Shown: piece after piece, positions 23,876 through 55,188 of the stretch
How positions within the stretch are numbered: the stretch's first letter is position 1
Layout: every line of letters starts with the position of its first letter
The notes under the pieces: model-generated
What the model saw: the letters and a program-made list of their open reading frames with translations, nothing else
Told to the model about the DNA's origin: nothing
Database searches by the model: none
Made by a program: the position numbers and the translations under genes
Assembly: GCA_000492175.2 (NCBI GenBank)
Contig: CP097573.1
Coordinates: 3,410,001-3,474,000 of the forward strand
DNA length: 64,000 nt
From: Firmicutes bacterium ASF500
GTDB taxonomy: Bacteria; Bacillota; Clostridia; Oscillospirales; Oscillospiraceae
Reading direction: 5' to 3'

Positions 23876-23951
23876 TGTAGGGCGCGACGACCCCGGCGCG
23901 CCGTTTGCAAAATCTACCGATCAGCGGCGCGCCGGGTCGTCGCGCCCTACA
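23876..23951. repeat. TGTAGGG palindrome, GCGCGACGA type
   Basis: Paired copy: the left arm starts TGTAGGGCGCGACGACC and the right arm ends GGTCGTCGCGCCCTACA, around a spacer of about 20 bases. The arms are complementary to each other over about 28 bases apart from one base. The same arm type flanks the composite copy at 46571-46783. Confidence 0.85.
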
Positions 23952-24009
23952 AATGCGGCTTTATTTTCTCGAAATTGATTTCCCCGGGCATCTCCGGAGA
24001 AAAAAGAGG

Positions 24010-24029
24010 AGCGGGGGCTCCGGCCCCCG
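24010..24029 (-). terminator. terminator of nrdR
   Basis: Stem GCGGGGGC/GCCCCCGC is followed on the minus strand by TCCTCTTTTTT. Confidence 0.7.
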
Positions 24030-24037
24030 CCCATTGC

Positions 24038-24493
24038 TTATTTATCCTTCAGCAGATTATTCAGCTCGGCCAGGAAGGTGCCGATGTCCTTGAATTCGCG
24101 GTAGACCGAGGCGAAGCGGACGTAGGCCACTTCGTCCAGCGCCTTCAGCCGCTCCATGACCAGCTCGCCGATCCGGGCGGTGCTGACCTCCCGGTCCATC
24201 TGGTTTTGCAGGATCTGCTCGATCTCAGCGGCCAGGGCCTCCATGGACTGATAGGGGACGGGCCGCTTCTCACAGGCCCGGATGACGCCGCTCATCACCT
24301 TGTTCCGGTCGAAGCTCTGGCGGCTTCCGTCCTTTTTGATGACCATCAGGGGCAGGCTCTCCACCGTCTCATAGGTGGTGAAGCGCTTGTGACAGGACAG
24401 ACACTCACGGCGGCGGCGGATGCTGGCGCCCTCGTCAGCGGGGCGGGAATCGACGACCTTGCTCTCTAAATAGCCGCAGTAGGGACATTTCAT
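24038..24493 (-). CDS. nrdR: transcriptional repressor NrdR
   Basis: This 151-aa regulator represses ribonucleotide reductase genes according to (d)ATP/ATP level. The N-terminal zinc ribbon has its four cysteines in MKCPYCG and CLSCHKRF, with the RRRREC basic patch between. An ATP-cone domain follows ([19 protein letters not shown] onward). Length and layout match the family exactly. The ATG is preceded by AGGAGG. It is monocistronic with its own promoter and terminator; no reductase gene lies in the window. Confidence 0.97.
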
Positions 24494-24534
24494 GGCGCAT
24501 ACCTCCTGTTGTGTTTGTGGGTCCTTTCTGCCAA

Positions 24535-24563
24535 ATTATAACACAACATGGGCGGTCACGCAA
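24535..24563 (-). promoter_or_regulatory. promoter of nrdR
   Basis: On the minus strand, -35 TTGCGT (24563-24558), a 17-base spacer and -10 TATAAT (24540-24535) lie 41 bases before the start codon. Confidence 0.85.
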
Positions 24564-24566
24564 GGG

Positions 24567-25787
24567 CTAAAACGTCCAGTAACCAGGGTCGCCCGGGTCA
24601 ACTGGGCAGCGGTCAGGAGGAAAGGCCTGGCCGGAGGTGGTGGATATCATGGGATTGGCGGACCGGTCGTACCGGAAAGAGTCCTGGTAATAGACCATCT
24701 GCCGGCCGGACTCGTCGGTGTACAGGGCGGCGGCGCAGTAATCGCCGTCCTCCAGAACAATTTCCCGGGCATTGGTCCAGCATGGACCGGCGGCACTGCC
24801 ATAGGTCTCCTGAGGGAGGACGCCCGGTTCAAACCATTGGACCAGCTTCCGATCCCGGAACAGGCCGACCTGGAGGCTGGCCGGCGGCTCGGGCTCAAAG
24901 CGCTCGTCACCCAGGTGGACGGTGATGTTCAGTGCCTTCGGGGGCATGGTGTGATTGTTGTAGTTGGGGAAGGTCTGGATTCCTGCCGCACCTACAGAGA
25001 GGCCGCTGCTGTTGTAGAGGTCAAAATAGTCCCGCAGCAGCTGGGTCTGGGCCGTGCCGCCGCTGAGAAAGGACACCGACAGGGAGATTTTATTGCTGAG
25101 AGGGCAGGTGATCTCGCCGGAGAATGTGTGCCCCGGCCCCGGCTCCGCCGTCTGCTCCACCATGTCTATTCCGTTGCAGGCCGTAAAGAGGGCGGTCATC
25201 CCCTCTTCAAAGGTCTTGGGCGTCACTTGTACGGTAAAGGTGGCGGAGTTGGAATAGAAATCGGTATAGGCCAGCTCGACGGACCAATGGGAGGTCAGGT
25301 CGGCCTGCTCCTTCAGGCTTTCCTCCATCCGCTGGGTGGCGGCGCTGATCTGGCTGTCCACCGAGCCGGCGATGTTGTCAATGGACTGGCGCAGGCCGTC
25401 GTACCGCTGCTCCATCTCCTTGACCTTGGCGCTGGTCCCCACCAGCAGGGCCAGCATAATTCCGCACAGAGCGAAGAGGCAGCGGACCGACCACTTGTCC
25501 CACACCGATTTCTGGGGGACGGCCTGGTACCGGGACAGGATGTCCTCCACCAGCCGCTCCTGGTCCTGAGCGGGGCGCTCCGGACCGGCCTCCTCCACCC
25601 CCAACAGCCAGCCCACCGGGACGGAGAAAATTTTGCTCAGCGTAATCAGCTTGTCGATCTCGGGCAGGGAGGCGTCCGATTCCCACTTATAGATCGCCTG
25701 CCGGGACACCCCCAGCCGCTCCCCCAGCCCCTCCTGGGACAGGCCCAGCTCCTTGCGCTTTTGGGCGACGCGCTGTCCTAATGTCAT
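24567..25787 (-). CDS. membrane-tethered XRE-family regulator
   Basis: This 406-aa protein begins with an XRE helix-turn-helix (residues 1-60; LSQEGLGERLGVSRQAIYKWE), followed by a linker and a single hydrophobic segment (about 103-121, CLFALCGIMLALLVG). Next is a short coiled coil (VKEMEQRYDGLRQSIDNI) and a beta-rich C-terminal domain of about 250 residues with aromatic and Thr/Ser-rich strands. The likely topology is DNA-binding domain inside and sensor outside. The extracytoplasmic part matches no fold I recognise. GAGGGCGAGATT precedes the ATG. No adjacent target gene is obvious, so it may sense an envelope signal and act at distant promoters. Confidence 0.78.
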   Translation of the reverse strand: MTLGQRVAQKRKELGLSQEGLGERLGVSRQAIYKWESDASLPEIDKLITLSKIFSVPVGWLLGVEEAGPERPAQDQERLVEDILSRYQAVPQKSVWDKWSVRCLFALCGIMLALLVGTSAKVKEMEQRYDGLRQSIDNIAGSVDSQISAATQRMEESLKEQADLTSHWSVELAYTDFYSNSATFTVQVTPKTFEEGMTALFTACNGIDMVEQTAEPGPGHTFSGEITCPLSNKISLSVSFLSGGTAQTQLLRDYFDLYNSSGLSVGAAGIQTFPNYNNHTMPPKALNITVHLGDERFEPEPPASLQVGLFRDRKLVQWFEPGVLPQETYGSAAGPCWTNAREIVLEDGDYCAAALYTDESGRQMVYYQDSFRYDRSANPMISTTSGQAFPPDRCPVDPGDPGYWTF

Positions 25788-25940
25788 AATCTCGCCCTCC
25801 TTTCTGCCTCCAGACTACCATCCAAAACCGCCCCCTGACCACCAACTGAGGCTTATTTTTTCGTCAACCAGCGGTTTACATGGGTAAAATTATACCCTAT
25901 TTCGAGGTTAGAGGCAAGGGGAATGGGCAATTAGGAGGCT

Positions 25941-25957
25941 TGTAGGGGCGGAGTTCT
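25941..25957 (+). repeat. TGTAGGGG half-element
   Basis: A single left arm TGTAGGGGCGGAG with no facing partner merges directly into the -35 box of the next promoter. Confidence 0.6.
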
Positions 25958-25984
25958 TGACATTCCCGCCAGGGGGGATATAAT
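25957..25984 (+). promoter_or_regulatory. promoter of HAD hydrolase gene
   Basis: TTGACA (25957-25962), a 16-base spacer and TATAAT (25979-25984) lie 31 bases before the start codon at 26015. Confidence 0.88.
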
Positions 25985-26014
25985 GAACGGAGAAACAGCC
26001 GGGGAGGGCAAGAT

Positions 26015-26629
26015 ATGATTCGCAATATTATCTTGGACATGGGCAATGTGCTCATTCACTGGTGTCCCGAGCGCTTTGTGGAGCGGTACGGTCTTTCGGA
26101 GGAGGACCGCGCCCTGGTGCTCCAGGAGGTCTTTAACAGTGTGGAGTGGATTCAGCTGGACCGGGGGATTATCTCCTTCGAGGAGGGAATTGGAGCGATG
26201 TGCCGCCGCCTGCCGGAGCGCCTCCACACCGCCGCCCGGGAGCTGACCCTGGACTGGTGGAGGGACTGCCTTTTCCCCGTGGAGGGGATGGGGGAGCTGG
26301 TCCGGGAGCTGAAGGGGCTGGGGTATGGCATCTACCTCCTCTCCAACGCCAAGGCGGACCTGCCTCTGTACTTTGACCGCATCCCAGGCAGCGAGTGCTT
26401 CGATGGCCGGATCGTCTCCGCCGACTGGAAGCTGCTCAAGCCCCAGCCGGAGATCTATGAGCTCCTTTTGCGGCAATTCGGACTGAAAGCGGAGGAGTGC
26501 TTCTTCGCTGACGACATGTTTATCAATGTGGAGGCCGCCCTCCTGGTGGGGATGTCCGGGACCATCTTCCGGAGCGCAAAGGAGCTGCGCCGCGCCCTGA
26601 TCGAGGCGGGCGTCTGCGTCAAAGCGTAA
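26015..26629 (+). CDS. HAD-superfamily phosphatase, YihX-like
   Basis: This 204-aa HAD hydrolase has the nucleophile Asp in IILDMGNVL (motif I, residue 8), motif II LLSNA, the motif III Lys in KLLKPQPEIYELL and motif IV FADDMFINVEAA. The DxGN form of motif I resembles YihX-type sugar-phosphate phosphatases. Helical cap residues lie between motifs I and II. The start has a GGGAGGGCAAGAT site. It is monocistronic between a strong promoter and tandem hairpins. The substrate is unknown. Confidence 0.88.
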   Translation: MIRNIILDMGNVLIHWCPERFVERYGLSEEDRALVLQEVFNSVEWIQLDRGIISFEEGIGAMCRRLPERLHTAARELTLDWWRDCLFPVEGMGELVRELKGLGYGIYLLSNAKADLPLYFDRIPGSECFDGRIVSADWKLLKPQPEIYELLLRQFGLKAEECFFADDMFINVEAALLVGMSGTIFRSAKELRRALIEAGVCVKA

Positions 26630-26634
26630 AGGAA

Positions 26635-26657
26635 CACCGCCGCAGTCTGCGGTGGTG
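26635..26657 (+). terminator. hairpin after HAD gene
   Basis: Stem CACCGCCGCA/TGCGGTGGTG has one imperfect pair and only a short T tract, so it is a weak first terminator. Confidence 0.5.
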
Positions 26658-26715
26658 CTGTTATGGTTCCCTCCCCAATGCGCATTTTATCATGATAGAT
26701 AAAAACTTTGCAGGG

Positions 26716-26739
26716 ACTGCCGCAGTGATCCGCGGCAGT
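26716..26739 (+). terminator. second terminator after HAD gene
   Basis: Stem ACTGCCGC/GCGGCAGT is followed by TTTTTTATTTT. Confidence 0.85.
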
Positions 26740-26778
26740 TTTTTATTTTCGGCTATTCTATTTTTTCCATAAATCTGC

Positions 26779-26784
26779 TATAAT
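26779..26784 (+). promoter_or_regulatory. -10 box of murB operon
   Basis: A perfect TATAAT lies 34 bases before the murB start, with no good -35 hexamer at the expected place. Confidence 0.6.
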
Positions 26785-26818
26785 CAAACGATAAACATGA
26801 TTTGATTTGGAGGAGCCT

Positions 26819-27748
26819 ATGGAACGACTGGAGGAACTGAAAAAACTTCTTGCGGAGGACTGTCCGGGGCTGGAGCTGCGGGCAGACGAGCCCATGTCCA
26901 GGCACACAACCTTCCGTCTCGGCGGGCCGGCGGCGCTGATGGCTCTGCCCAAGTCAGTGAGCGAGGCAAAGTCGGTGCTGGGGGCGGCCCAAAAGGCGGG
27001 GGTGGAGCCCTTTTTCCTGGGAAATGGCAGCAATCTGCTGGTGTCTGACAGCGGGTATCCCGGCTTTGTGGTCAAGCTGGCCGGGGAATTTGAGGAGATT
27101 CGCCCGGGGCTTTCCCCGCAAAACGGAAAGCACCTTCTGCGCGCGGGGGGCACCGTACTGCTGTCTAAGCTGTCCAATCGGGCGCAGGAGCTGGGCCTCG
27201 CCGGCCTGGAGTTCGCCGGAGGTATTCCGGGCAGCGTGGGCGGAGCGGTCACCATGAACGCCGGGGCCTATGGCGGAGAGATTTCCCAAAGCCTGCTCCA
27301 GGTCCGCGCGGTGGACCGCAATGGAGAGGAACGGAATTTCCGCGCTTCGGAGTGCGGCTTCGGCTATCGAAAGAGCATTTTTTCCGGCGGTGATTTTCTC
27401 GTTGTTGAGGCCCTTTTCCAGCTGGAGCCGGGAGACCCGGCGGCTATCAAGGCCCGCATGGACGAGCTGACCGCCCAGAGGAAAGCGAAACAGCCCCTGG
27501 AGTACCCCAGCGCCGGGTCCATGTTCAAGCGCCCCCCGGGACACTTCGCCGCCGCCCTCATCGACCAGTGCGGCCTGAAGGGCCTCACCGTGGGCGGGGC
27601 TCAGGTGTCGGAGAAGCACGCCGGGTTCGTAATCAACCGGGGGGGAGCCGCCTGCGCCGATGTGCTGGAGCTGGTGCACCAGGTCCGGGAGCGGGTCCTG
27701 AGCCAGACCGGCGTGGAGCTGGAGATGGAGGTCAAGGTGTTGAAATGA
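26819..27748 (+). CDS. murB: UDP-N-acetylenolpyruvoylglucosamine reductase
   Basis: This 309-aa FAD enzyme reduces UDP-GlcNAc-enolpyruvate to UDP-MurNAc in peptidoglycan synthesis. The FAD-binding segments SRHTTFRLGGPA, GNGSNLLVSD and GIPGSVGGAVTMNAGAYGGE are clear. The catalytic Ser lies in YPSAGSMFKRP and a late Glu in the C-terminal domain (EMEVKV). The ATG at 26819 is chosen because GGAGGAG lies immediately upstream; an in-frame TTG four codons earlier lacks one. It heads the murB-rapZ-yvcK-whiA operon, a very conserved Firmicute order. A palindromic repeat separates it from rapZ. Confidence 0.96.
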   Translation: MERLEELKKLLAEDCPGLELRADEPMSRHTTFRLGGPAALMALPKSVSEAKSVLGAAQKAGVEPFFLGNGSNLLVSDSGYPGFVVKLAGEFEEIRPGLSPQNGKHLLRAGGTVLLSKLSNRAQELGLAGLEFAGGIPGSVGGAVTMNAGAYGGEISQSLLQVRAVDRNGEERNFRASECGFGYRKSIFSGGDFLVVEALFQLEPGDPAAIKARMDELTAQRKAKQPLEYPSAGSMFKRPPGHFAAALIDQCGLKGLTVGGAQVSEKHAGFVINRGGAACADVLELVHQVRERVLSQTGVELEMEVKVLK

Positions 27749-27750
27749 CC

Positions 27751-27825
27751 TGTAGGGGCGGCCTGTGGCCGCCCGTCCAAAGGGACTGGCGGCACGAGAG
27801 CGGGCGGCCACAGGCCGCCCCTACA
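27751..27825. repeat. TGTAGGGG palindrome between murB and rapZ
   Basis: Paired copy: the left arm TGTAGGGGCGGCCTGTGG continues to CCGCCCG, and the right arm is the exact complement ending CCGCCCCTACA. The arms flank a spacer of about 25 bases. It lies within the operon, so it is transcribed. Confidence 0.9.
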
Positions 27826-29781: not shown

Positions 29782-29783
29782 CC

Positions 29784-30674
29784 ATGTCCTTTTCGGCGGA
29801 AGTGAAAACCGAGCTGTGCCGGGCTCCCCTGAGCCGGAGGTGCTGCGCCCAGGCGGAGGCCTACGGCTCGCTGCTCTACTGCAACACCTTCCGGGGGGAC
29901 GAGGTGCGGATTGTCACCGAGAACGGAGCCTTCGCCCAGCGCCTGCCCGCCCTGTTCAAAAAGGCCTTTAAGCTGTCCTTCGACCGCCTGCCCCAGGGGG
30001 AGGGAAAGCAGGTCTTTGCCGTCACCGACCCGGCCAAGCTAACGGCCATCCACCAGACCTTCGGCGCCGACCGGAACGCCCTGGCCCTCCACCTGAACTT
30101 CGCCGCGGTGGAGGAGAGCTGCTGCCGCGCCGCCTTCCTCCGGGGGGCCTTTCTGGCGGGGGGATCGGTCACCGACCCCCGGAAGGGCTATCACCTGGAG
30201 CTGGCTACCTCCCACCACAGCGTGAGCCGGGAGGTGCTGGCCCTCATGCGGGAGCTGGGCCAGGAGCCGAAGGCCGCTCAGCGCAAGGGCAACGCGGTGC
30301 TCTACTTCAAGCAGAGCGACCGGATTGAGGACTTTCTCACCTGCCTGGGCGCTCCGGTGGCCGCTATGGAGGTGATGAATGCCAAGCTGGAGCGGGACAT
30401 CCGGGGGAAGGTGAACCGCCGGGTGAACTGCGACGCCGCCAACCTGGACAAGGCGGTGGAGGCCGCGATGTCTCAGGTGGAGGCCATCCGCCGCCTGGAG
30501 CGGGAGGGCGTGCTGACCGCCCTGCCGGACAAGCTCCGGGAGGTCGCCGCCCTCCGCCTGGCCCACCCGGAGGACACCCTCTCCCAGCTGGCCGAGCGGT
30601 GCGACCCGCCCATCACCAAGTCGGCGCTGAACCACCGCCTGCGCAAGCTGGTGGAGCTGGGGAGGGAGAAGTAG
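29784..30674 (+). CDS. whiA: WhiA DNA-binding protein
   Basis: This 296-aa protein is of the WhiA family: an N-terminal LAGLIDADG-like domain (FLRGAFLAGGSVTDP) and a C-terminal helix-turn-helix (SQLAERCDPPITKSALNHRLR). It binds DNA and influences cell division and chromosome partition in Firmicutes. The ATG at 29784 has GGAGGAG just upstream, overlapping the end of yvcK. Its last 15 codons are partly duplicated about 800 bases downstream (31432-31471), where they now supply a ribosome site to another gene. Confidence 0.95.
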   Translation: MSFSAEVKTELCRAPLSRRCCAQAEAYGSLLYCNTFRGDEVRIVTENGAFAQRLPALFKKAFKLSFDRLPQGEGKQVFAVTDPAKLTAIHQTFGADRNALALHLNFAAVEESCCRAAFLRGAFLAGGSVTDPRKGYHLELATSHHSVSREVLALMRELGQEPKAAQRKGNAVLYFKQSDRIEDFLTCLGAPVAAMEVMNAKLERDIRGKVNRRVNCDAANLDKAVEAAMSQVEAIRRLEREGVLTALPDKLREVAALRLAHPEDTLSQLAERCDPPITKSALNHRLRKLVELGREK

Positions 30675-30678
30675 GGGC

Positions 30679-30759
30679 ATTGACGATGAAGAAGGAACCC
30701 GCTGTCTGGACATGGGCGACGGCTGGGAGCTGCAAATGTTCTATATGCCGAAAGGATAA
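30679..30759 (+). pseudogene. 3' fragment related to the next gene
   Basis: Directly after the whiA stop, 26 codons ending in TAA read IDDEEGTRCLDMGDGWELQM-FYMPKG. They are nearly the same as the C-terminus of the gene at 30877-31431 (NNEEGTRCLDMGDGWELQM-YYAPKG). Nothing of the remainder of the gene is present. It is a leftover of a duplication or deletion, not a gene. Confidence 0.8.
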
Positions 30760-30831
30760 CGTTAGAATGGGCGGCTCCAGGCCGATACGGGGAGAAACCG
30801 CCGCATGGTAAGCTGATGGAAGCCGGGGAAA

Positions 30832-30857
30832 TGTAGGGGCGGATATGATTCGCCCGC
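30832..30857 (+). repeat. TGTAGGGG single-hairpin half copy
   Basis: TGTAGGGGCGGATATGATTCGCCCG forms one arm of the palindrome family, with an imperfect internal stem and no facing partner. Confidence 0.65.
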
Positions 30858-30876
30858 TAAAGAAGAGGATATACAG

Positions 30877-31431
30877 ATGGACAAAAGTGAAAAACTGTTT
30901 CTTTGGCTGCTGATTGCCATTTTTGGGGCGTTTGCTTTGTTTGTGTGGGGGTATATGTCGATTCAAGAGTATCTCAGCCCCAGCCCGAAAAAAATCCTTT
31001 CCCGCATGGAAAGGCGGGACCCGGCGGCCGCCCAGGAGATGATAGATCATTATTCCGAGGATTTGAAAACCGTTGCGGCGGCGGCAGAAATCTTAGAGGA
31101 CGGCGAGTGGTGCTTCTACCCCTTAAATTATATTGTTGGTTCCTACAACTCTGACTGGTATGAGGAGAATGTACTGCACAAGATACCTGAAGAGCTGTTG
31201 GATGTTCTGCGGTCAATGGAAGAAAAATATCCAGAGTGCAAGAAAGATCTTGAGATGCGCAAAGGACAGGTCGGTATTGGACTGATGAATGACAGCAAAG
31301 GATTTTCCATTCTTTGTTATCCAGGAGGAAGTCTGATGAGCTATTCTAAGATCAACAATGAGGAAGGAACCCGCTGCCTGGACATGGGCGACGGCTGGGA
31401 GCTCCAAATGTACTATGCGCCGAAAGGGTAG
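30877..31431 (+). CDS. small membrane-anchored hypothetical protein
   Basis: This 184-aa protein of unknown function has one N-terminal hydrophobic segment (residues 8-27, FLWLLIAIFGAFALFVWGY) and a soluble helical/beta domain outside. No catalytic motif is recognised. AGAGGATATACAG lies before the ATG. A close 3' fragment lies upstream at 30679-30759, so this is the surviving member of a tandem pair. The stop codon is directly followed by a copy of the whiA tail. Base composition is less GC-rich than the neighbouring operon. Confidence 0.65.
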   Translation: MDKSEKLFLWLLIAIFGAFALFVWGYMSIQEYLSPSPKKILSRMERRDPAAAQEMIDHYSEDLKTVAAAAEILEDGEWCFYPLNYIVGSYNSDWYEENVLHKIPEELLDVLRSMEEKYPECKKDLEMRKGQVGIGLMNDSKGFSILCYPGGSLMSYSKINNEEGTRCLDMGDGWELQMYYAPKG

Positions 31432-31471
31432 TGAACTGCTGCGCAAGCTGGCGGAGCTGGGGAGGGGGAAG
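31432..31471 (+). repeat. duplicated tail of whiA
   Basis: GCGCAAGCTGGCGGAGCTGG and the following GGAGGGGGAAG match the last 40 bases of whiA (30632-30671) with few changes. The GGAGGGGGAAGC stretch now acts as the ribosome site for the gene at 31473. Confidence 0.85.
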
Positions 31472-31472
31472 C

Positions 31473-31949
31473 ATGGACAAGGCTGGAAAAGACGGGCGGA
31501 GCCCGGTGCTTCCCATCGTATTGAAGGACTCGGCTGATATGCTGATGGTTGGCCTGTTGTGTTGCGGCTTCTTTTGCTTGGTCATGCTTCTGTTCGGGCT
31601 GATGATGGGCTCCTGGTCCGTTTGCGGCCTATCAGCCCTGTTCCTGACTGTATATGGGACGATTTTGTATTGTCAGAAGCGCAGGGCGTTCATATTTGAG
31701 CGGGACCAGGTGACGGTCCAGACCGCCTTTTCTCAGGTGAGCTATTCGTATGAGGGGATGGACGCCTTGATCTGCCGTTCGGTGACCATGAGCCGGGCGC
31801 GCGGTAATTGGCCGGCCCGGCCCGCCCTGGCCCTGCGCCGCGAGGGGAAGGCGCTGGTCTGGGTGCCGCTCTCCTGGCGCGTTGTGCCGGAATTTCAACA
31901 GGCCGTGGCCTGGGTGGAGCAGCTGCCCATTCCCAGGCGTTACATTTAA
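31473..31949 (+). CDS. small two-helix membrane protein
   Basis: This 158-aa protein has two adjacent hydrophobic helices (about residues 25-65, LMVGLLCCGFFCLVMLLFGLMM and CGLSALFLTVYGTILYC), followed by a cytosolic beta-rich domain resembling a bacterial PH-like fold (RRAFIFERDQVTVQTAFSQV). The ATG at 31473 is chosen because the GGAGGGGGAAGC derived from the whiA tail copy lies right upstream; a longer frame would translate that duplicated tail. No function is assigned. Confidence 0.6.
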   Translation: MDKAGKDGRSPVLPIVLKDSADMLMVGLLCCGFFCLVMLLFGLMMGSWSVCGLSALFLTVYGTILYCQKRRAFIFERDQVTVQTAFSQVSYSYEGMDALICRSVTMSRARGNWPARPALALRREGKALVWVPLSWRVVPEFQQAVAWVEQLPIPRRYI

Positions 31950-31950
31950 T

Positions 31951-31974
31951 CGGGCGGCCCAGGCCGCCCTTACA
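31951..31974 (-). repeat. half copy of TGTAGGGG palindrome
   Basis: CGGGCGGCCCAGGCCGCCC followed by TTACA is a lone right arm with a one-base change in the terminal CCCTACA, just after a stop codon. Confidence 0.65.
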
Positions 31975-32000
31975 GAAAAAGAGAAAAGGAGAAAAAGATT

Positions 32001-32491: not shown

Positions 32492-32733
32492 CAAAAGGCC
32501 CCTTTTCCCCGCAAGGGGGACGCCGCATCCGTAAGGCGGCAAAGCCGCCAACGGCTGCGCAGTGAAAGGGGCTGTCAGCGGAGCTGACTGAGGATTGCGT
32601 TCGGCGAAGCCGAACATACGAAGTAAACAAGGATTTGCAGAGACCTCGTATACTTCGTATATTTTGCTTCGCAAAATGCAATCCTCCGTCACGGCCCTTC
32701 GGGCCGCGCCACCTCCTTTCAAAAGGAGGCTTG
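32492..32733. repeat. long palindromic repeat, family B copy 1
   Basis: The outer ends are caaaaGGCCCCTTTTCC and CTCCTTTCAAAAGGAGGCTT. The interior has GGGGCTGTCAGCGGAGC-TGACTGAGGATTG and, further on, CAATCCTCCGTCACGGC and GCCGCGCCACCTCC. Copy 2 at 41660-41787 shares these internal words in inverted order. No gene is present in the 276 bases between the acetyltransferase and the next start. Confidence 0.7.
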
Positions 32734-39206: not shown

Positions 39207-39284
39207 TGTAGGGGCGGGTATTACCCGCCCGCTCCACTGGCGCGCGCCGCGCAATCGCGCGGGCGGATGATATCCGCCCCTACA
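39207..39284. repeat. TGTAGGGG palindrome with two unlike arms
   Basis: The left hairpin TGTAGGGGCGGGTATTACC leads to CGCCCG, and the right hairpin CGGGCGGATGATATCCGCCC leads to CTACA. Each arm closes on itself with a different loop sequence, so the arms are not mirror copies in the middle. Confidence 0.85.
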
Positions 39285-41794: not shown

Positions 41795-41823
41795 TGTAGG
41801 GGCGGCCTGTGGCCGCCCCTACA
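41795..41823. repeat. TGTAGGGG palindrome, single hairpin
   Basis: TGTAGGGGCGGCC-TGT-GGCCGCCCCTACA is a solitary 29-base palindrome with a 3-base centre, the minimal intact form of the family, directly downstream of glpK. Confidence 0.9.
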
Positions 41824-46570: not shown

Positions 46571-46783
46571 TGTAGGGCGGGACGACCTCGGCCCGCCGCC
46601 CACAGAGAGCGGAGGATTGATTTCGCCGCAGGCGAAATGTGCGGAGCAAGTGAGGGTTTAGAACCTCGTGTAGGGGCGGATATCATCCGCCCGCCGAACA
46701 TCGCCTGGACCTGACGGGCGGATAATATCCGCCCCTACAACGCACCCCTGAAGAACGGCGCGCCGGGGTCGTCGCGCCCTACA
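46571..46783. repeat. composite nested palindromes
   Basis: An outer pair of arms, TGTAGGGCGGGACGACC (left, from 46571) and GGGGTCGTCGCGCCCTACA (right, to 46783), is of the type seen at 23876. Between them, at 46669-46739, lies a complete inner element TGTAGGGGCGGATATCATCC...GGATAATATCCGCCCCTACA of the other type. A further word, GATTTCGCCGCAGGCGAAAT, forms its own small hairpin near 46617-46636. The region 46467-46839 holds no gene. Confidence 0.85.
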
Positions 46784-46839: not shown

Positions 46840-47346
46840 ATGTCCCTATCCCCCATCCCCCGAGGGGTCTACCCCTCTATAACCCACATATCCCCCGAGG
46901 CCCTGGCGGAGAGGGGCGTCAAGCTGGTGCTGGCCGACCTGGACAACACCCTGGTACCCTACAAGGTGACGGTCCCTCCCGCTGAGGTAATCGCCTGGAA
47001 GGAGGCGCTGGCGGCGGCGGGAATCACGCTGTTCCTGTTGTCCAACAGCCGCAAGCCGGGCCGGGCGCAGAAATTCGCCGAACAGCTGGGCATCCCCTAT
47101 CAGGGCCACTCGGGCAAGCCGAAACGAGCGGGCTATCTCAGGGCCATGGAGCGGATGGGGGCGAAGCCCGAGGAGACCGTCATGGTTGGGGACCAGATCT
47201 TCACCGACACCCTGGGGGCCAACAACGCCGGGGTGACCCCGCTGCTGGTTTTGCCTATTCGGCTGGCGGGCAACCCGGGGCGTTACATCCGGTATGCGGC
47301 GGAAACCCCCTTCCGTCTGTTGGGAAAAGGGAGGCCCTTCTTGTGA
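46840..47346 (+). CDS. YqeG-family HAD phosphatase
   Basis: This 168-aa HAD IIIA-type protein has the motif I nucleophile in LVLADLDNTLVPYK (Asp near residue 32), motif II LFLLSNSRK, the Lys in HSGKPKRAGY, and the motif IV acidic pair in MVGDQIFTDTLGANNAG. YqeG homologues are found next to cell-cycle and ribosome genes and act as phosphatases of unclear substrate. AAAGGAGAACATATC precedes the ATG. Its stop overlaps the GTG start of the AP endonuclease gene. Confidence 0.92.
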   Translation: MSLSPIPRGVYPSITHISPEALAERGVKLVLADLDNTLVPYKVTVPPAEVIAWKEALAAAGITLFLLSNSRKPGRAQKFAEQLGIPYQGHSGKPKRAGYLRAMERMGAKPEETVMVGDQIFTDTLGANNAGVTPLLVLPIRLAGNPGRYIRYAAETPFRLLGKGRPFL

Positions 47347-48197
47347 GTGCAAAATTCGGCCCCGCGGGCAATTCGGAGAGTTTTTCCAGGGTCCACAAGT
47401 CCTCCCTGGCCGCCCCCAAGTGGATTGCCGGCTTTGGCCTGGACTGCTACGAGTATCAGTGCGGAAAGGGGGTCCACGTGGGGAAGGAGACCGCCGTCAA
47501 AATCGGCGAGAACGCCCGGGCGGCGGGGATATCCCTGTCCCTCCACGCCCCCTACTTCATCAACCTGGCCAACCCCGACCGGGATGCCCTCCAAAAGACC
47601 ATCGGCTACATCACCGCCGGATGTCAGGTGGCGGACTGGATGGGGGCGGGACGGGTGGTCATTCACTCGGGGGCGCTGATGAAGCGTGGACGGAGCCAGG
47701 CGCTGGAGACGGCGAAACAATCTCTGGCCGAGGTCATTGCCGCCTGCGACGGGCAGGGGTTTGACCATATCGCCCTGTGCCCCGAGACCATGGGCAAGAT
47801 CAACCAGCTGGGCGACCTGGACGAGGTGCTGGAGCTGTGTACCCTGGACCGGCGGCTGGTGCCCTGTATTGACTTCGGCCACCTCTACGCCCGCTCCCTG
47901 GGGGCGGACGACGGGGCGGAGGCCTTTTCCCGGATGCTGGACCGGGTGGCGGAGGTCCTGGGCCCCGACCGGGCCGGCACCTTCCACAGCCACTTCTCCC
48001 ACATCGAGTTTACCCCCAGCGGCGGCGAGAAGTGCCACCGCACCTTCGACGGCGACGGGGGCTACGGTCCAAGCTGGACCCCGCTGGCGGCGGAGATTGC
48101 CCGCCGGGGCTGGTCGCCCACCTTCATCTGTGAGTCCGCCGGCACCCAGGCGGAGGATGCGCTGACTATGAAACAAACCTATGAGGCGCTTTTATAG
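47343..48197 (+). CDS. nfo: AP endonuclease IV family protein
   Basis: This 284-aa zinc-dependent TIM-barrel endonuclease cuts DNA at abasic sites. The metal ligands can be seen: LHAPYF, VVIHSGA, LCPETMG, CIDFGHLYAR, FHSHFSHIEF and ICESAG supply the family's His/Glu/Asp set. The GTG start overlaps the yqeG stop by 4 bases (GTGA), so translation is coupled. Its stop codon lies inside the left arm of a palindromic repeat (48193-48271). Confidence 0.93.
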   Translation: MSAKFGPAGNSESFSRVHKSSLAAPKWIAGFGLDCYEYQCGKGVHVGKETAVKIGENARAAGISLSLHAPYFINLANPDRDALQKTIGYITAGCQVADWMGAGRVVIHSGALMKRGRSQALETAKQSLAEVIAACDGQGFDHIALCPETMGKINQLGDLDEVLELCTLDRRLVPCIDFGHLYARSLGADDGAEAFSRMLDRVAEVLGPDRAGTFHSHFSHIEFTPSGGEKCHRTFDGDGGYGPSWTPLAAEIARRGWSPTFICESAGTQAEDALTMKQTYEALL

Positions 48198-48271
48198 GGG
48201 CGGCCTGTGGCCGCCCGCCGCTCTAAAATGTTTCCCCTTAATAATGCGGGTGGCCACAGGCCGCCCCTACA
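48193..48271. repeat. TGTAGGGG palindrome overlapping a stop codon
   Basis: The left arm TATAGGGGCGGCCTGTGG contains the TAG stop of the endonuclease gene (one base altered from TGTA). The right arm GGGTGGCCACAGGCCGCCCC leads to TACA. The spacer is about 30 bases. Confidence 0.85.
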
Positions 48272-50504: not shown

Positions 50505-52298
50505 ATGAGAAAGCGCAGATTCCTCAGCGCCCTGGCGGCTCTGGCCCTGGTGTTCACCCTGAGCCCGGCGGTCCGGGCGGAGGGGGCGGCTCCGGCGGTG
50601 TCCTCCAACCGGGGGGGACACGAGTATGTAAATGGCCGGCGGTGGGCCCAGCCCGCCAAGTCCTACCTCTATGAGAATCAGTCTGGCGGACTGACCCGGG
50701 TGGAGTATATCGAGGACCACGTGGTGGTGGAGGACTATGACGCCTCCTTCGGCCTCCAGTCCAGCCGGACGCTCCCGGCGGAGCTCCCCCTGTGGGGCGG
50801 CTTTTTTGCCGGGGAGAAGTATAACTTCCTGATCTTCGGCCAGGAGAACAAGGAGGAGGACGACGGCAAGGAGGTCATCCGCGTCGTCCAGTACGACAAG
50901 AGCTGGAACCGCCTGGGGCAGGCCAGCCTCCAGGGGGCCAACACCATCGTCCCCTTTGACGCGGGGGCGCTCCGCTGCGACGAGTACGGCGGATACCTCT
51001 ATATCCGCACCAGCCACAAGATGTACACCGCCAAGGACGGGCTGAACCATCAGGCCAACGTGATGATCGCCCTGCGGCAGAAGGACATGGAGATTACCGA
51101 CTCCTTCTGGAAGGTGATGAACGTGAGCTACGGCTATGTCAGCCACTCCTTCAACCAGTTTGTCCTGATCGACCAGGAGGGCCGCATCGTCACCCTGGAC
51201 CACGGCGACGCCGGTCAGACCCGGGCGGCGGTTCTGCTGCGGTACAACGCCGAGGCCGGGAAGGACAGCTTCCAGGAGGGGGTCAAGGTGCCTCTGGAGG
51301 ATGGCTATTACACCTGGAGCTATGTGAGCCGGGTGGATGTTCTGGCTTTCCCCCAGGCCGCTGAGCACTACAACGACACCGGCTGCGCCCTGGGCGGCTT
51401 CGCCGAGACCTCCAAGGGCTATGTGACTGCCTATCAGTTCGACGGTACCGCCTCCTACCTGGGCGTGGACAGCCGGGACCTGTATCTGTCCACGGTGAGC
51501 AAGGACCTGAAGAGCCCTGAGACCGTCCAGCTGACCACCGGTCAGAACGTCTCCAACCCCCAGCTGGCCCCCACTGGACTGGAGGGTGGCTATGTGCTGT
51601 GGAACACAGTGGACCAGAAGAGCTGGTACAACTTTACCTTCGGGGACACCCTCTACTACGCCTCCTATGACGCCAACGGTGCTGTGGGCCAGATCCAGAC
51701 CGCCCCGGGACAGTTGTCCGACTGCCAGCCCATCTTCTGGCAGGGCAAGGCGGTGTGGTACACCACCGACAACTCCGTCCCCACCTTCTACCTCCTGGAC
51801 GGAGCCGGCGTGACCGCCCGCAAGGCCGGTACCGCCGCCGCGCCCGACCCCGACCCCGTTCCCGATACCGCCACGGCCCACGCCTCCACCCAGCTGGTGC
51901 TGGTGGACGGCAAGAGCGTGGAGTTCCAGGCCTACGCCCTCCTGGATGAACAGGGGAACCCCACTAACTATGTGAAGATGCGGGACCTGGCCTATGTGCT
52001 CAACGGCACGGGGGCCCAGTTCGAGGTGGACTGGGACGGCGGCGTGGTGGTCACCACCAAGACGCCTTACACCGTCAGGGGCGGGGAGATGACCACCCCC
52101 TATGAGGGAAACCAGCCCTGTACCTCCGTTGAGAGCGCCACCAACGTGGACGGAAAGCTCGTCCGCCTGGACGCCTTCACCATTTACGACAGTCAGAATA
52201 ACGGCTACACCTACTACAAGCTGAGGGACCTGGGCAGCGTCCTGGGCTTCGGCGTAGACTGGGTAGACGGGCAGGGCATTACGATCAGCACCCGCTGA
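50505..52298 (+). CDS. secreted stalk-domain protein
   Basis: This 597-aa exported protein has a basic start and signal peptide ending near SPAVRAEG (residue 25). A long region with repeated beta strands (about 40-440; FDAGALRCDEYGGYLYIRTS, FNQFVLIDQEGRIVTLDHG) is probably a beta-propeller. A Pro/Asp linker (PDPDPVPDTA) precedes two copies of a copper-amine-oxidase-N-like stalk motif, YVKMRDLAYVLNGTG and YYKLRDLGSVLGFGVDW. Such proteins are common on clostridial surfaces and their ligands are unknown. AGGAGAGGAAGCAT precedes the ATG. It is monocistronic with its own promoter and terminator. Confidence 0.8.
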   Translation: MRKRRFLSALAALALVFTLSPAVRAEGAAPAVSSNRGGHEYVNGRRWAQPAKSYLYENQSGGLTRVEYIEDHVVVEDYDASFGLQSSRTLPAELPLWGGFFAGEKYNFLIFGQENKEEDDGKEVIRVVQYDKSWNRLGQASLQGANTIVPFDAGALRCDEYGGYLYIRTSHKMYTAKDGLNHQANVMIALRQKDMEITDSFWKVMNVSYGYVSHSFNQFVLIDQEGRIVTLDHGDAGQTRAAVLLRYNAEAGKDSFQEGVKVPLEDGYYTWSYVSRVDVLAFPQAAEHYNDTGCALGGFAETSKGYVTAYQFDGTASYLGVDSRDLYLSTVSKDLKSPETVQLTTGQNVSNPQLAPTGLEGGYVLWNTVDQKSWYNFTFGDTLYYASYDANGAVGQIQTAPGQLSDCQPIFWQGKAVWYTTDNSVPTFYLLDGAGVTARKAGTAAAPDPDPVPDTATAHASTQLVLVDGKSVEFQAYALLDEQGNPTNYVKMRDLAYVLNGTGAQFEVDWDGGVVVTTKTPYTVRGGEMTTPYEGNQPCTSVESATNVDGKLVRLDAFTIYDSQNNGYTYYKLRDLGSVLGFGVDWVDGQGITISTR

Positions 52299-52313
52299 AC
52301 CAAATAAAAACCA

Positions 52314-52349
52314 CAGTCAGCCGCCGCGTCTTGATGCGGCGGCTGACTG
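52314..52349 (+). terminator. terminator between stalk gene and recQ
   Basis: A 14-bp stem CAGTCAGCCGCCGC with its complement lies 15 bases after the stop. The reverse strand carries the better T run. Confidence 0.7.
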
Positions 52350-52365
52350 CGTTGCAGGTGATGAA

Positions 52366-54204
52366 ATGGACAAGCATGAGGTTCTCAAGCAGTATTTCGG
52401 CCACAGTACCTTCCGCCAGGGGCAGGAGCGGCTGATCGACGGCATTCTGTCCGGCCAGGACGTGCTGGGCGTGATGCCCACCGGCGGGGGGAAGTCCATG
52501 TGCTATCAGGTGCCCGCCCTGCTTCTGCCGGGGCTGACCCTGGTGGTGTCCCCCCTGATCTCCCTGATGAAGGACCAGGTGGCCGCCCTGAAGGAGGCCG
52601 GAGCGCCCGCCGCCTACATCAACAGCTCGCTGACAGGGGAGCAGCTGCGGACGGTGTACAGCCGGGCCCGTCAGGGGGCCTATAAGCTGATCTACATCGC
52701 CCCGGAGCGGCTGGAGGGGGAGGGCTTCGCCGCCCTGGCCCGGGAGGCGGACCTGTCCCTGGTGGCGGTGGACGAGGCCCACTGCGTCTCCCAGTGGGGT
52801 CAGGACTTCCGGCCCAGCTATCTGAGAATCCGGGAATTTGTGGACAACCTGCCCCGCCGCCCGGTGCTGGCCGCCTTCACCGCCACCGCCACCGGCCAGG
52901 TGCGGGAGGACATCGTCCAGCGGCTGGGCCTGCGGGAGCCGGTCCGGGAGGTCACCGGCTTCGACCGGCCCAACCTGTTTTTCGACGTGCGCCACCCCAG
53001 AAACAAGATGGAGGAGCTGACCCGCCTGCTCCGGGAGCGGGAGGGGCGGTGCGGCATCATCTACTGCGCCACCCGGGGCGGAGTGGACCGGGTGTGCCGG
53101 GCGCTGGAGGACAAGGGCGTCCCCGCCGCCCGCTACCACGCGGGGATGGAGGACGGGGAGCGGCGGGCCAGTCAGGACGACTTCCAGTTCGACCGCAGGC
53201 CCGTCATGGTGGCCACCAACGCCTTCGGAATGGGCATTGACAAGTCCAACGTCAGCTTTGTCATCCACTACAACATGCCCAAGAGCCTGGAGGCCTATTA
53301 CCAGGAGGCGGGCCGGGCCGGCCGGGACGGCGAGCCGGCGGACTGCGTGCTGCTCTACTCCGCCGGGGACGTGACCACCGCCCGGTTCCTCATCGAGAAC
53401 GGCGGCGAGGAGCTGAGCCCGGAGGACCGGGCCGAGGTCCGCCGCCGGGACTACGAGCGGCTCAATCTCATGGTGGACTACTGCAAGACCACCGGCTGTC
53501 TCCGAGGATACATTTTGGACTACTTCGGCCAGGAGCACGGCCCGGACTGCGGAAGCTGCGGCAACTGCGTCGGGGAGTACACCCAGGAGGACGTGACCGT
53601 CCCCGCCCAGATGATCCTGTCCTGTGTCCTCCGGGTGCGGGAGAAGCTGGGCTACTACGTGGGCAAGACGCTGATCGTCCGCACCCTCCGGGGCAGTCGG
53701 GACCAGCGGGTGCTGGAGCTGGGGCTGGACGGCCTGTCCACCTACGGCCTGATGAACAAGCTCGCCGCCTCCCGCATCCGGGAGATCATGGACTTTTTGG
53801 AGCTGGAGGGCTGTCTGCGCCTCAACCCGGCCCACTCTACCCTGGAGCCGGCGGGGGAGGCCCGGGCGGTGCTCTTCCAGGGGAAGCGGCTGTCCATGTC
53901 CGTCCGGAAGGACCGGGCGGAGGAGCGGGCGAAGGAGAAGCGCCGGACGCCCGCCCCGGCGGGAGAGGCCCCGGAGGAGCTGACAGCCGCCCTCAAGGCG
54001 GTGCGGAACCGCCTGGCCCAGCGGGAGGACGTGCCCGCCTACATCGTGTTTTCCAACGCCACCCTCACCGATATGGCGGCAAAGCGCCCCCGGAGCATGG
54101 AGGCCCTGCTGGAGGTCTCCGGCGTGGGCCGGGTGAAGGCGGCGAAATACGGCGCGGCCTTTTTGGAGGCCATCGCCCAATTTGAGGCAGGAAAAAAACT
54201 GTAA
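52366..54204 (+). CDS. recQ: ATP-dependent DNA helicase RecQ
   Basis: This 612-aa RecQ helicase acts in recombination and fork repair. Motif 0 (FRQGQERLI), Walker A TGGGKSM, DEAH-type box [11 protein letters not shown] and motif [12 protein letters not shown] are present. The zinc-binding cysteines follow ([11 protein letters not shown]...CGSCGNC). A winged-helix domain and a C-terminal HRDC domain ([19 protein letters not shown]) complete the family layout. The start ATG has a weak GCAGGTGATGAA site. A promoter for rpsB lies right after its stop. Confidence 0.95.
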
Positions 54205-54211
54205 AAAAAGC

Positions 54212-54240
54212 TTGCATTCCCTGGAAGAAAGTGATATACT
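54212..54240 (+). promoter_or_regulatory. promoter of rpsB
   Basis: -35 TTGCAT (54212-54217), a 17-base spacer and -10 TATACT (54235-54240), leaving a leader of about 110 bases before rpsB. No autoregulatory S2 structure is clearly recognised in it. Confidence 0.85.
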
Positions 54241-54355
54241 ACTCTGGCATTATGTGTGGGAGTGCGGATTTTTCGCCCGGTGCCCGGAGAATCTCCGGGT
54301 TGGCGGAGAATATGATGCCCCCAGAAGAATAACTGAAAAACAGGAGGAAAAAACT

Positions 54356-55084
54356 ATGGCAGTCGTATCTATGAAGCAGCTGCTGGAGGCCGGCGTTCAC
54401 TTCGGCCACCAGACCCGCCGGTGGAACCCCAAGATGGCCACCTACATCTACACGGAGCGCAACGGGATCTATATCATTGATCTCCAGAAGACCGTGAAGA
54501 AGCTGGAGGAGGCCTATAACTTCGTCCGTTCCCTGGGTGAGAAGGGCGAGACTCTGCTCTTCGTGGGCACCAAGAAGCAGGCTCAGGAGGCCATCAAGGA
54601 GGAGGCCAGCCGCGTCGGCATGTACTGGGTGAACGCCCGGTGGCTGGGCGGTATGCTCACCAACTTTAAGACCATGCGGGGCCGCGTGGACCGCCTGGCC
54701 CAGCTGAAGAAGATGCAGGAGGACGGCACCTTCGACATGTTGCCCAAGAAGGAAGTCATCAAGCACATGGGCGAGATCGCCAAGCTGGAGAAGTACCTGG
54801 GCGGCGTCACCGAGATGCGCAAGCTCCCCGGCGCCCTGTTCGTGGTGGACCCCCGCAAGGAGCGCAACGCCATCAACGAGGCCCGCAAGCTCCACATCCC
54901 CATCGTGGCTATCGTGGACACCAACTGCGACCCCGACGAGATCGACTATGTGATCCCCGGCAATGACGACGCCATCCGCGCCATCAAGCTGATCTCCTCC
55001 GTCATGGCCAACGCCATCCAGGAGGGCAAGCAGGGCCAGGACGCCCCCGCCGCTGAGGCTGAGGCTCCCGCCGCTGCGGAGTAA
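54356..55084 (+). CDS. rpsB: 30S ribosomal protein S2
   Basis: This 242-aa small-subunit protein, uS2, is identified by [20 protein letters not shown] near the N-terminus, [13 protein letters not shown] and [19 protein letters not shown]. An Ala/Glu-rich acidic tail closes it. AGGAGGAAAAAACT precedes the ATG at 54356; a longer frame upstream reads the leader. It precedes tsf in the conserved order. Codon use is biased to C-ending optimal codons, as expected for high expression. Confidence 0.98.
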
Positions 55085-55106
55085 TGATGAATTTTTCGGC
55101 CAACTG

Positions 55107-55188
55107 TGTAGGGGCGGCCTTTGGCCGCCCGCACGTTGGACGCTGTATCCAGAGCAGTTGAAACGGGCGGCCAAAGGCCGCCCCTACA
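55107..55188. repeat. TGTAGGGG palindrome between rpsB and tsf
   Basis: Paired copy: the left arm TGTAGGGGCGGCCTTTGG leads to CCGCCCG, and the right arm CGGGCGGCCAAAGGCCGCC leads to CCTACA. The core TTTGG/CCAAA replaces the TGTGG/CCACA of other copies, changing both sides of the stem together. Confidence 0.9.

Follow-up and report, generated by a model that had tools for sequence, protein, structure and literature searches.

Palindromic repeats in the window

The DNA analysed here, referred to as the window, is a 64,000-nucleotide stretch of the genome of Firmicutes bacterium ASF500 (G000 in our genome set). Its genes include murB, rapZ, glpK, rpsB and tsf. Short palindromes with TGTAGGG and CCCTACA ends lie at ten sites, and the families are called A1, A2 and B (Table 1).

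Table 1. Repeat elements of the window, with the analyses by which each was identified.
Position	Strand	Feature	Basis
23876..23951		B-family REPIN, TGTAGGGCGCGACGACCCCGGCGCGCCG ... inverted copy	inverted repeat, direct reading, folding
25941..25951	+	foot or half copy TGTAGGGGCGG, no hairpin at thresholds used	word count, reading, hairpin scan
27751..27825		A1-family REPIN between murB and rapZ	inverted repeat, reading, folding
30832..30856	+	single A2-like REP hairpin	reading, hairpin scan
31951..31974	-	single degenerate A1-like hairpin, altered foot TGTAAGG	direct reading
39207..39284		REPIN with mixed arms: GGTATTACC type on the left, A2 on the right	inverted repeat, reading
41795..41823		29-nt double-foot REP behind glpK, a single perfect palindrome	inverted repeat, folding
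46571..46783		B-family REPIN split by second repeat and nested A2 REPIN	reading, hairpin scan
46669..46739		A2-family REPIN nested in B element	inverted repeat, reading, folding
48193..48271		A1-family REPIN	inverted repeat, reading, folding
55107..55188		A1-like REPIN (CCTTTGG) between rpsB and tsf	reading of spacers, folding

The initial annotation proposed a dispersed palindrome family, and this family is real. The window contains 21 copies of the word TGTAGGG compared to 6.3 ± 2.7 in shuffled sequence, and none of 100 shuffles reached 21. Seven inverted repeats with TGTAGGG-type ends coincide with places that the annotation had named. When folded as single-stranded DNA, six elements gave z-scores between −6.7 and −9.6. 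All ten sites were read, and the copies are not uniform. The foot at 25941 has no hairpin at the thresholds used, that of 31951–31974 is altered, the arms of 39207–39284 come from two families (GGTATTACC and GATATCATC) and the B element at 46571–46783 is interrupted.

Pairing in the stems was compared using 12 hairpins, selected by place and left foot, that gave nine distinct rows. Standard pairs were found in 71 of 72 pair cells; in slid controls, 32–60% of cells paired. Changes on both sides of a pair occurred in eight cells, compared to 2.9 after shuffling (0 of 500 shuffles reached eight). The number of pairs with a both-side change (2 vs 1.6) and of further pair types (4 vs 4.1) was not above the shuffled value. 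The folded form is thus kept while the stems vary, as had been claimed, and covariation in the window rests on two inner pairs.

The paired elements are units of 71–82 nt with terminal inverted repeats of ~25 nt. Each arm is a hairpin in its own right, arms of different families combine within one element, and single hairpins and the 29-nt double foot are also present. The GTAG tetranucleotide stands at the foot of a 20–40-nt hairpin, as is usual for GTAG REPs. A scan for hairpins behind GTAG, rather than GTAGGG, was unspecific (44 vs 31–69 for permuted words). Rfam matched RNase P and a tRNA in the window and nothing at the repeat elements. No T run was found behind the elements that were read. 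The repeats are GTAG-type REP palindromes, often arranged as facing pairs (REPINs).

Some elements touch neighbouring features. The 27751 REPIN begins 3 nt past the murB stop codon, and the left foot of the 48193 REPIN, ATAG, provides the TAG stop codon of ORF 47343–48197. The foot at 25941 directly precedes a TTGACA...TATAAT-like promoter.

Copies across the genome and at equivalent sites

The copies in the genome far exceed those of the window from which the family was first described. Thus, TGTAGGGGCGG occurs 225 times in G000 and the reversed word 26 times. Exact copies number 169 for family B, 117 for A2 and 57 for A1. Gene context was sampled for 39 element groups, 10 of them from 264 kb and 29 from the first 30 TGTAGGGGCGG matches in the list; genes were predicted from codon usage in the present analysis. 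Whereas 75% of random 75-mers overlap a predicted gene by more than 15 nt, 33 of the 39 groups do not. The claim that all copies lie outside coding sequence therefore holds for most; the exceptions include the 39207 element, which has 30 nt in common with a predicted gene. The groups lie mostly between genes of the same direction (27/39), with six between convergent and four between divergent genes, and two undetermined. By row count, 24 of the 39 groups are at least 60 nt long, as expected of inverted doublets with a short spacer, a few being merged clusters. Many dispersed, mainly intergenic copies are a hallmark of GTAG REPs and REPINs. The likeness to REP/BIME elements pointed out initially is thus borne out by GTAG foot, hairpin, inverted pairing, mainly intergenic position and several hundred copies.

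Equivalent sites were read in other genomes. The rpsB-tsf spacer was read in 29 other genomes. A paired element from a different family occupies it in 12, three of these having a GCAG or GTGG foot. The remaining 17 have a plain G+C hairpin with, in most cases, T-rich sequence behind it. Upstream of rapZ, some other species have other GTAG-type elements. Both spacers were considered as clean empty sites and rejected: whole spacers differ between species and, in part of 29 rapZ loci, the upstream gene is not murB (by eye). Hence, these spacers yield no target-site evidence. The sister species G082 has the mixed 39207–39284 REPIN in common with G000 but lacks the 23876–23951 REPIN at the orthologous site. 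At the corresponding position in G082, nothing matches the 293-nt stretch that contains the 46571–46783 element. In the G082 copy of the 41795 double foot, T-A is replaced by C-G in both feet and the loop is the reverse complement. At the few sites where presence and absence could be compared between G000 and G082, there was no recognisable duplication, clean junction or perfectly clean empty site.

A RAYT gene outside the window

As first noted, no helper transposase is encoded in the window. A RAYT-like (TnpA_REP) gene, for a protein of 171 aa, does exist 0.8 Mb outside it (G000:C1:2609623). The protein matches NCBIfam model NF047646 (REP_Tyr_transpos) with an E-value of 2.2e-16 and 60 bits. 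This model was the best for all seven proteins tried, at 60–75 bits; because these scores are under the curated cut-off of 80, the model alone supports the term 'RAYT-like'. The motifs of the G000 protein are NHIH, WQ and YIDTNP. Other RAYT genes also have DHVH or DHIH, and one has FQ. Residues H87, H89 and Y152 are invariant among 38 aligned RAYT proteins, and among solved structures TnpA_REP (4ER8; E 8e-13) is the family's best relative. Taking motifs, the 4ER8 match and cognate REPs together, the gene is a RAYT, and it probably encodes the enzyme that copies the palindromes. In G000 only the B family has a cognate RAYT; none was found for A1 or A2.

Pfam Y1_Tnp alone misses the G000 RAYT (E 0.023). 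Its genome search gave only an IS200 gene, so that relying on this model would have led wrongly to 'no RAYT'. We also considered the product of this gene, an IS200/IS605-type TnpA (G000:C1:2803995), as the helper. It shares the HUH-Y1 class but scores as IS200 (153.8 bits against a cut-off of 55), and its 3.4-kb locus contains no TGTAGGG. It was rejected.

RAYT genes contain a hairpin pair

The reading frame of the G000 RAYT gene holds an inverted pair of REP hairpins that flank the HUH-coding segment and match the B elements of the window. Its upstream hairpin and the left hairpin of the 23876 element have the same sequence over 28 letters. We read 51 RAYT loci of the genus. Two were without HUH and seven had one anchor, leaving 42 with both protein anchors. 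A downstream hairpin, between HuH and Y, is present in 42/42 of these genes and an upstream hairpin also in 37. The seven one-anchor loci have both hairpins (three), downstream only (one), upstream only (two) or none (one). Seven distinct downstream hairpins, selected by the geometry of the upstream partner, pair in 56 of 56 cells.

The two hairpins of one gene agree at 0.93, compared to 0.55 between genes and a maximum of 0.69 in 10,000 permutations. The own partner was the best match for only 24 of 37 genes because families are shared between genes. Third codon positions are identical in 374/384 cases in the hairpins and 420/720 around HUH, in groups picked by family, which makes the comparison partly circular. 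The in-gene hairpins are translated in different frames in different genes, and the encoded loop sequence is therefore free. In gene L206 the downstream hairpin is present three times.

In other genera of the order, a GTAGGG hairpin was seen by eye on both sides in 26 of 28 loci (both anchors were found in 18). At least 13 nt are shared in 21 of the 28; under the null, shared stretches reach 12 nt at the 95% point and 28 nt at most. Outside the gene, a GTAG or GTGG hairpin lies within ~1 kb of 11/42 genus RAYT genes, including that of G000. For the remaining 31, such hairpins were found only inside the gene in the ~1 kb searched.

Copy number follows the embedded family

Copy number follows the family embedded in the RAYT gene (combined rank test, 0 of 10,000 permutations; the statistics ignore kinship). 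The median copy number of five families is 12.5 in genomes with a RAYT and 0 in those without. Here, 34 genomes rather than 36 were counted as having a RAYT, since G011 and G074 have weak IS200-like matches only. Tested singly, families A2, F and C gave a clear result, B was marginal (p 0.052) and A1 failed (p 0.81). G026 embeds A1 yet has no exact dispersed A1 copy. Similarly, G083 (B), G032 and G070 (both C) have no copies of the embedded family beyond the gene itself. B copies are also present where the data show no RAYT embedding B, in G005 (109 copies), G024 (80) and G082 (43), whose assemblies are 95, 75 and 82% complete. Present RAYT and present families therefore often disagree.

Covariation of hairpin family and the helix behind HUH

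The helix block behind HUH and the hairpin family are correlated (r 0.66, partial r 0.60, 0 of 2000 permutations; again, the statistics ignore kinship). The N and C blocks correlate too (partial r 0.16 and 0.28), and shared ancestry therefore plays a part. A single locus gives a closer comparison. Here, 13 genes form 78 pairs; 11 were clustered by downstream gene (L184 and L207, with one anchor, were dropped) and L183 and L174 were added by sequence. Helix identity is 60% in 19 same-family pairs and 24% in 47 different-family pairs, with 12 intermediate pairs left out, whereas the C-terminal blocks are 86% and 79% identical. Comparing the RAYT genes of G000 and G082 in 50-nt steps, identity is 48–64% across hairpins and helix but 92–100% in the C-terminal coding part. 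It is 96% in the step before the first hairpin and 74% one step earlier. From these alignments, the in-gene pair, HUH segment and recognition helix most likely behave as one specificity module that either stays nearly unchanged or is replaced as a block.

Interpretation

On this sequence evidence we consider, with a probability of roughly 0.85, that the repeats belong to several families of non-autonomous REP/REPIN elements and were spread by RAYT-type HUH tyrosine transposases, whose genes contain an in-frame REPIN. In G000 the B family would be cognate to the RAYT still present. A1 and A2 match RAYTs of other species of the genus (A2, the sister species) and were probably left by an earlier RAYT of the lineage. 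In the RAYT's own REPIN, one GTAG hairpin precedes the first helix and the inverted partner directly follows HUH. The enzyme would bind the single-stranded hairpin by its GTAG foot, using the helix following HUH, cut beside it and move or copy the REPIN elsewhere. The direction of copying, and whether the in-gene pair acts as template or binding site, are suppositions within this scheme.

More tentatively, a RAYT gene of this order may combine enzyme and substrate in a self-matching specificity cassette, the in-frame REPIN and the adjacent recognition helix fitting each other as lock and key. This cassette would be swapped as a block between RAYT genes, each swap starting a new genome-wide REPIN family. 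Dispersed families would therefore record the past RAYTs of a genome.

The in-gene pair may instead be autoregulatory, RAYT binding its own gene or mRNA to limit expression, with dispersed elements derived by internal deletion. The matching pair at similar places and near-identical third positions within families agree with this, as do the binding of folded single strands by RAYTs, described in the parts of PMC8266576 considered, and a size series from in-gene pair (~170–230 nt) through REPIN (70–80 nt) to double foot (29 nt). On casual reading, no obvious RAYT-segment remnant was noticed in the spacers of dispersed copies. We regard an autoregulatory role as somewhat unlikely, though compatible with spread by RAYT.

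We doubt a little more that the hairpins are chance decorations, REPs that, as in other genes, jumped into the sequence, here at two tolerant surface loops, and have no role. The repeated hairpin of L206 and the free loop sequence suit this idea, and passages of PMC6006769 place the subclass 2.4 insertion region at the periphery of a structural model, where it may matter little. Against it stand the filling of both positions in 37/42 genus genes and 26/28 loci of other genera, the presence of the downstream one in 42/42 genus genes, the far beyond chance match within a gene and, with the circularity stated above, the third positions.

It is improbable that the hairpins are host signals (terminators, attenuators or mRNA stabilisers) and not mobile elements. 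The 17 rpsB-tsf spacers with a G+C hairpin look as if the element had replaced that hairpin, and same-direction gene pairs prevail; but the window elements lack a T run, and differing families at one spacer, a copy number that varies among species between 0 and 169 for one family, and the RAYT association, fit mobile elements better. A host role after insertion is possible. The MITE alternative raised initially, here derived from a DDE-type insertion sequence with TGTAGGG ends, gained no positive support and is very improbable: the paired elements resemble such units in length and terminal repeats, but their arms are hairpins, single, double-foot and mixed-family forms occur, no target duplication could be made out where a few sites were set against G082, matching ends lie in RAYT genes and the IS200-type locus has none.

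The closest known repeats are GTAG REPs and REPINs (PMC2817692, PMC3116915, PMC3733652), which have the same GTAG foot, 20–40-nt hairpin, inverted doublets around a spacer that is short and variable, mostly intergenic position, many copies, several families per genome and, sometimes, a TAG stop provided by the foot. Look-alikes such as TGTAGGAGCGGATTCATCCGCGAT in Pseudomonas entomophila are tabulated (PMC2817692). Unlike the hosts in that literature, the present one is an Oscillospiraceae-type Bacillota, a gut bacterium; 'Firmicutes' and 'Clostridi' are absent from the main texts of PMC3733652 and PMC2817692. The families here also share one GTAGGG foot and differ in the inner part of the stem, and several occupy one spacer in different species.

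The closest enzymes are TnpA_REP subclass 2.4, or RAYT group 4 (Quentin et al., 2018; PMC6006769). According to the passages considered, these share [ND]H[IV]H, WQ and YIxxNP motifs, similar length, long and double-foot REPs and in-frame REPs between HuH and Y; the subclass 2.4 motifs NH[IFV]H, WQ and YIxNNP are found in the RAYTs here. REP insertions in tnpA_REP genes are thus already published. Here, by contrast, a second hairpin precedes HUH, and the pair therefore brackets the HUH-coding segment. Those passages also describe flanking REPs, whereas an outside hairpin accompanies only 11/42 genes here. We found no published account of a two-sided pair or hairpin-helix module; helix-hairpin covariation and block difference are absent from the passages of PMC6006769 considered.

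E. coli TnpA_REP (4ER8) also has HUH and a C-terminal Tyr, and the helix behind HUH aligns with its stretch holding alpha-3, where K82 contacts the REP bulge (parts of PMC8266576). As that source describes them, E. coli REPs have a stem bulge, unlike the repeats here, and by the papers' general description they lie beside the gene and not inside it.

How RAYTs recognise REPs, and how new REP families originate, is unsettled in the literature considered. Dozens of RAYT genes are available in this order, and each carries its probable target within its own sequence. Enzyme-target pairs are thus suggested by reading alone, and the natural series of helix against hairpin makes the recognition code testable at the bench. 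The in-gene pair also opens the joint change of enzyme and target to study. Some conserved-looking residues, VG in the first loop and PT before the helix, may partly be translated DNA foot rather than protein constraint.

Repeat elements in the window and the genome

All ten sites at which the initial annotation had placed TGTAGGG palindromes were inspected directly; the motif occurs 21 times in the window against 6.3 expected. The elements are facing hairpin pairs of 71–82 nt, single hairpins, one 29-nt palindrome and one nested case, in which an element of family A2 lies within one of family B (the REP hairpin families A1, A2, B, C and F are told apart by the inner stem). Single-strand folding of six elements was far better than that of shuffled sequences. 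Compensated changes on both sides of the stem, also proposed initially, were seen in 12 aligned hairpins and rest on two inner pairs. At 48193–48197 a degenerate foot, ATAG, is the source of the TAG stop of ORF 47343–48197; the available text of PMC3733652 describes the foot of other GTAG REPs likewise supplying stop codons. Within 25941–25985, a half foot copy lies directly 5' of a near-consensus TTGACA...TATAAT promoter-like sequence preceding ORF 26015. By eye, a second palindromic repeat outside the GTAG family, consisting of GAGGATTG, a TTCG/CGAA hairpin and an AAG..AGG stretch, apparently occurs twice.

Coordinates of the features discussed (window positions unless a contig is given)
Feature	Position	Remark
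29-nt palindrome	41795–41823	foot on both sides
Nested element	46669–46739	inside 46571–46783
Second palindromic repeat, GAGGATTG	32585–32691 and about 46608–46668	latter copy inside split B element
rpsB-tsf spacer comparison	55084–55230	loci without paired element: L090–L092, L094, L096–L098, L100–L109
RAYT-like gene of G000	C1:2609623–2610129	12-protein profile match, E 6e-58

The ASF500 genome (G000; one contig of 3,665,928 bases, with the window at C1:3410001–3474000) holds more copies beyond the window: TGTAGGGGCGG occurs 225 times, compared with 26 for the reversed word. Exact inner-stem copies number 169 for family B (GTAGGGCGCGACGACC), 117 for A2 (GATATYATC) and 57 for A1 (GGCCTGTGGCC), with zero matches for each reversed control; families F and C of the genus have no exact match anywhere in this genome. 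The elements lie mainly outside coding sequence, as first noted: 33 of 39 groups examined avoid predicted genes, whereas 75% of random 75-mers overlap one, the gene positions being an uncurated codon-usage prediction made for this analysis. By RapZ, the nearest named genomes carry Flintibacter, Lawsonibacter, Colidextribacter, Pseudoflavonifractor and Flavonifractor labels; Lawsonibacter is a member of the Oscillospiraceae.

A RAYT-like gene outside the window

A Pfam search of the ASF500 genome found one Y1 transposase, an IS200-type gene. No TGTAGGG lies near it, which rules it out as the helper. In its locus, L031 (C1:2802495–2805851), this IS200-type TnpA gene adjoins, by eye, an ORF resembling a DDE-type transposase, and the hairpins beside it (GGACCACCCG..CGGGTGGTC) are unlike the REP families. 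Across the genus, PF01797 also gave weak matches to a second kind of gene. Of 64 genomes, 36 had a match to a profile built from 12 of these, although in two the match was weak and IS200-like. The best model for the match in ASF500 is NF047646 (60 bits, below the 80-bit cut-off), the protein carries HUH, WQ and YIxxNP motifs, and the nearest solved relative of the family is TnpA_REP 4ER8; on these sequence features we class the gene as RAYT-like. Thus, the initial statement that the window lacks a helper transposase stands, but the genome has a candidate, and the missing helper would sit outside the window.

Most RAYT genes of the genus contain a hairpin pair

In the RAYT reading frame, an upstream GTAG hairpin starts 102–165 nt before HUH and an inverted downstream hairpin ends 59–89 nt past the HUH start. 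Both protein anchors were present in 42 genes of the genus; the downstream hairpin was found in all 42 and the upstream one as well in 37. The seven one-anchor loci had both hairpins (three), the downstream (one), the upstream (two) or neither (one). In ASF500, the left in-gene hairpin equals the window element at 23876 over 28 identical letters. Over a dozen inner-stem types occur in the genus, and the two hairpins agree at 0.93 within a gene and 0.55 otherwise (permutation maximum 0.69). The hairpins are translated in differing frames from gene to gene; therefore, the encoded protein sequence is not what is conserved. Third codon positions in same-family genes were identical at 374/384 sites in hairpins and 420/720 around HUH, a partly circular comparison since the groups were picked by hairpin family. 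One RAYT (L206, genome G031) has three in-frame downstream hairpins with a longer loop. The ASF500 gene (L187) has an extra B-type pair 5' of the gene (−661 to −582 from HUH), and the G069 gene also has a B-type pair upstream.

REPs, REPINs and RAYTs are already established in the accessible text of PMC2817692, PMC3116915, PMC8049555 and PMC3733652. That of PMC6006769 describes in-frame REPs within subclass 2.4 tnpA_REP genes; as a rule they lie between HuH and Y, so the downstream hairpin seen here is already on record. Within the accessible openly licensed PubMed Central literature, we found no account of an upstream hairpin or a pair around HUH, of matching between both hairpins and the recognition helix, or of exchange at a fixed locus.

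A 38-protein profile matched 101 of 394 genomes of the order at E 0.001 or better, some weakly. Among the best 28 loci outside the genus, GTAGGG hairpins were seen by eye on both sides in 26; at L220 the two hairpins also match but the upstream foot is altered, and no pair was seen by eye at L234. The two sides shared a stretch of at least 13 nt at 21 of the 28. G041, from another family of the order, contains TGTAGGGGCGG 57 times, and its RAYT (L236) likewise encloses a hairpin pair, so the REP/RAYT system extends beyond this genus.

The hairpin family correlates with a helix of the enzyme

According to the accessible text of PMC8266576, alpha-3 of E. coli TnpA_REP makes contact with the REP. 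The block behind HUH in the genus RAYTs aligns with the stretch containing this helix, and in this respect they resemble the E. coli enzyme. That block correlated with hairpin family at r 0.66 (partial r 0.60 controlling for the N and C blocks; 0/2000 permutations); partial r was 0.38 for the HUH block, 0.16 for N and 0.28 for C, all in statistics that ignore phylogeny. GATATYATC hairpins pair with helix QMKRxVSK, GCGCRCATTGYGCGC hairpins with GMKEAVTK, and two CTGTG-loop families with QFKGSxTK. In a single-locus set of 13 genes, mostly grouped through the downstream gene, the helix was 60% shared in 19 same-family pairs and 24% in 47 different-family pairs.

At this locus we compared the ASF500 RAYT with that of its sister species G082 (L180), and the two differ as a block. 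Before the first hairpin, identity was 96% in the adjacent 50 nt and 74% in the preceding 50; the far upstream flanks gave no alignment. Identity fell to 48–64% across both hairpins and the helix, was 92–100% in the C-terminal coding part and 84–100% into the next gene, the last alignment step excepted. The ASF500 helix is shared 57% with G018 and 52% with G083, which have B-type hairpins at another locus, compared with 43% for G082. We interpret the difference in hairpins and helix block as a putative module replacement, although the same stretch may instead have been under strong divergent selection.

Dispersed copies loosely track the embedded family

Copy numbers were counted as exact matches in genomes of mixed completeness. 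Among 34 RAYT genomes, a combined rank test associated copy number with the embedded family (0/10,000 permutations). Single-family tests gave p 0.0007 for A2, below 0.0001 for F, 0.0023 for C and 0.052 for B; A1 showed no association (p 0.81). Median copies of the five families were 12.5 with a RAYT and 0 without. Seven of the 30 genomes without a RAYT had more than five copies, and six of these seven were less than 90% complete. The dispersed families track the embedded family, loosely. Against tracking, exact A1 hairpins in G026 are confined to the gene itself, and G005, G024 and G082 are rich in B copies with no B-type RAYT in the data. RAYT turnover, surviving old copies, cross-mobilisation or missing sequence could cause such mismatches.

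Element sites differ between relatives

Presence and absence, and family differences, at compared sites make movement of the elements likely. Neither the 23876 element nor the 293-nt stretch that holds the 46571 element is present in G082; the 39207 element and the 41795 palindrome are common to both genomes, the latter with compensated changes in its feet. No target duplication was recognised at the sites compared with G082. By eye, about seven of 29 relatives carry differing GTAG- or GCAG-footed elements 5' of rapZ and others none; in some, the gene upstream is not murB. The rpsB-tsf spacer, also inspected by eye in 30 genomes including that of the window, holds paired elements of different families in 13 and a plain G+C hairpin in 17. 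The plain hairpin, mostly CAGCGCCCGCCC..GGGCGGGCGCTG and mostly followed by T-rich sequence, is absent where an element is present. Between whiA and a GNAT gene, the window has 1.3 kb (30666–31986), compared with a different stretch of ~340 nt at locus L032.
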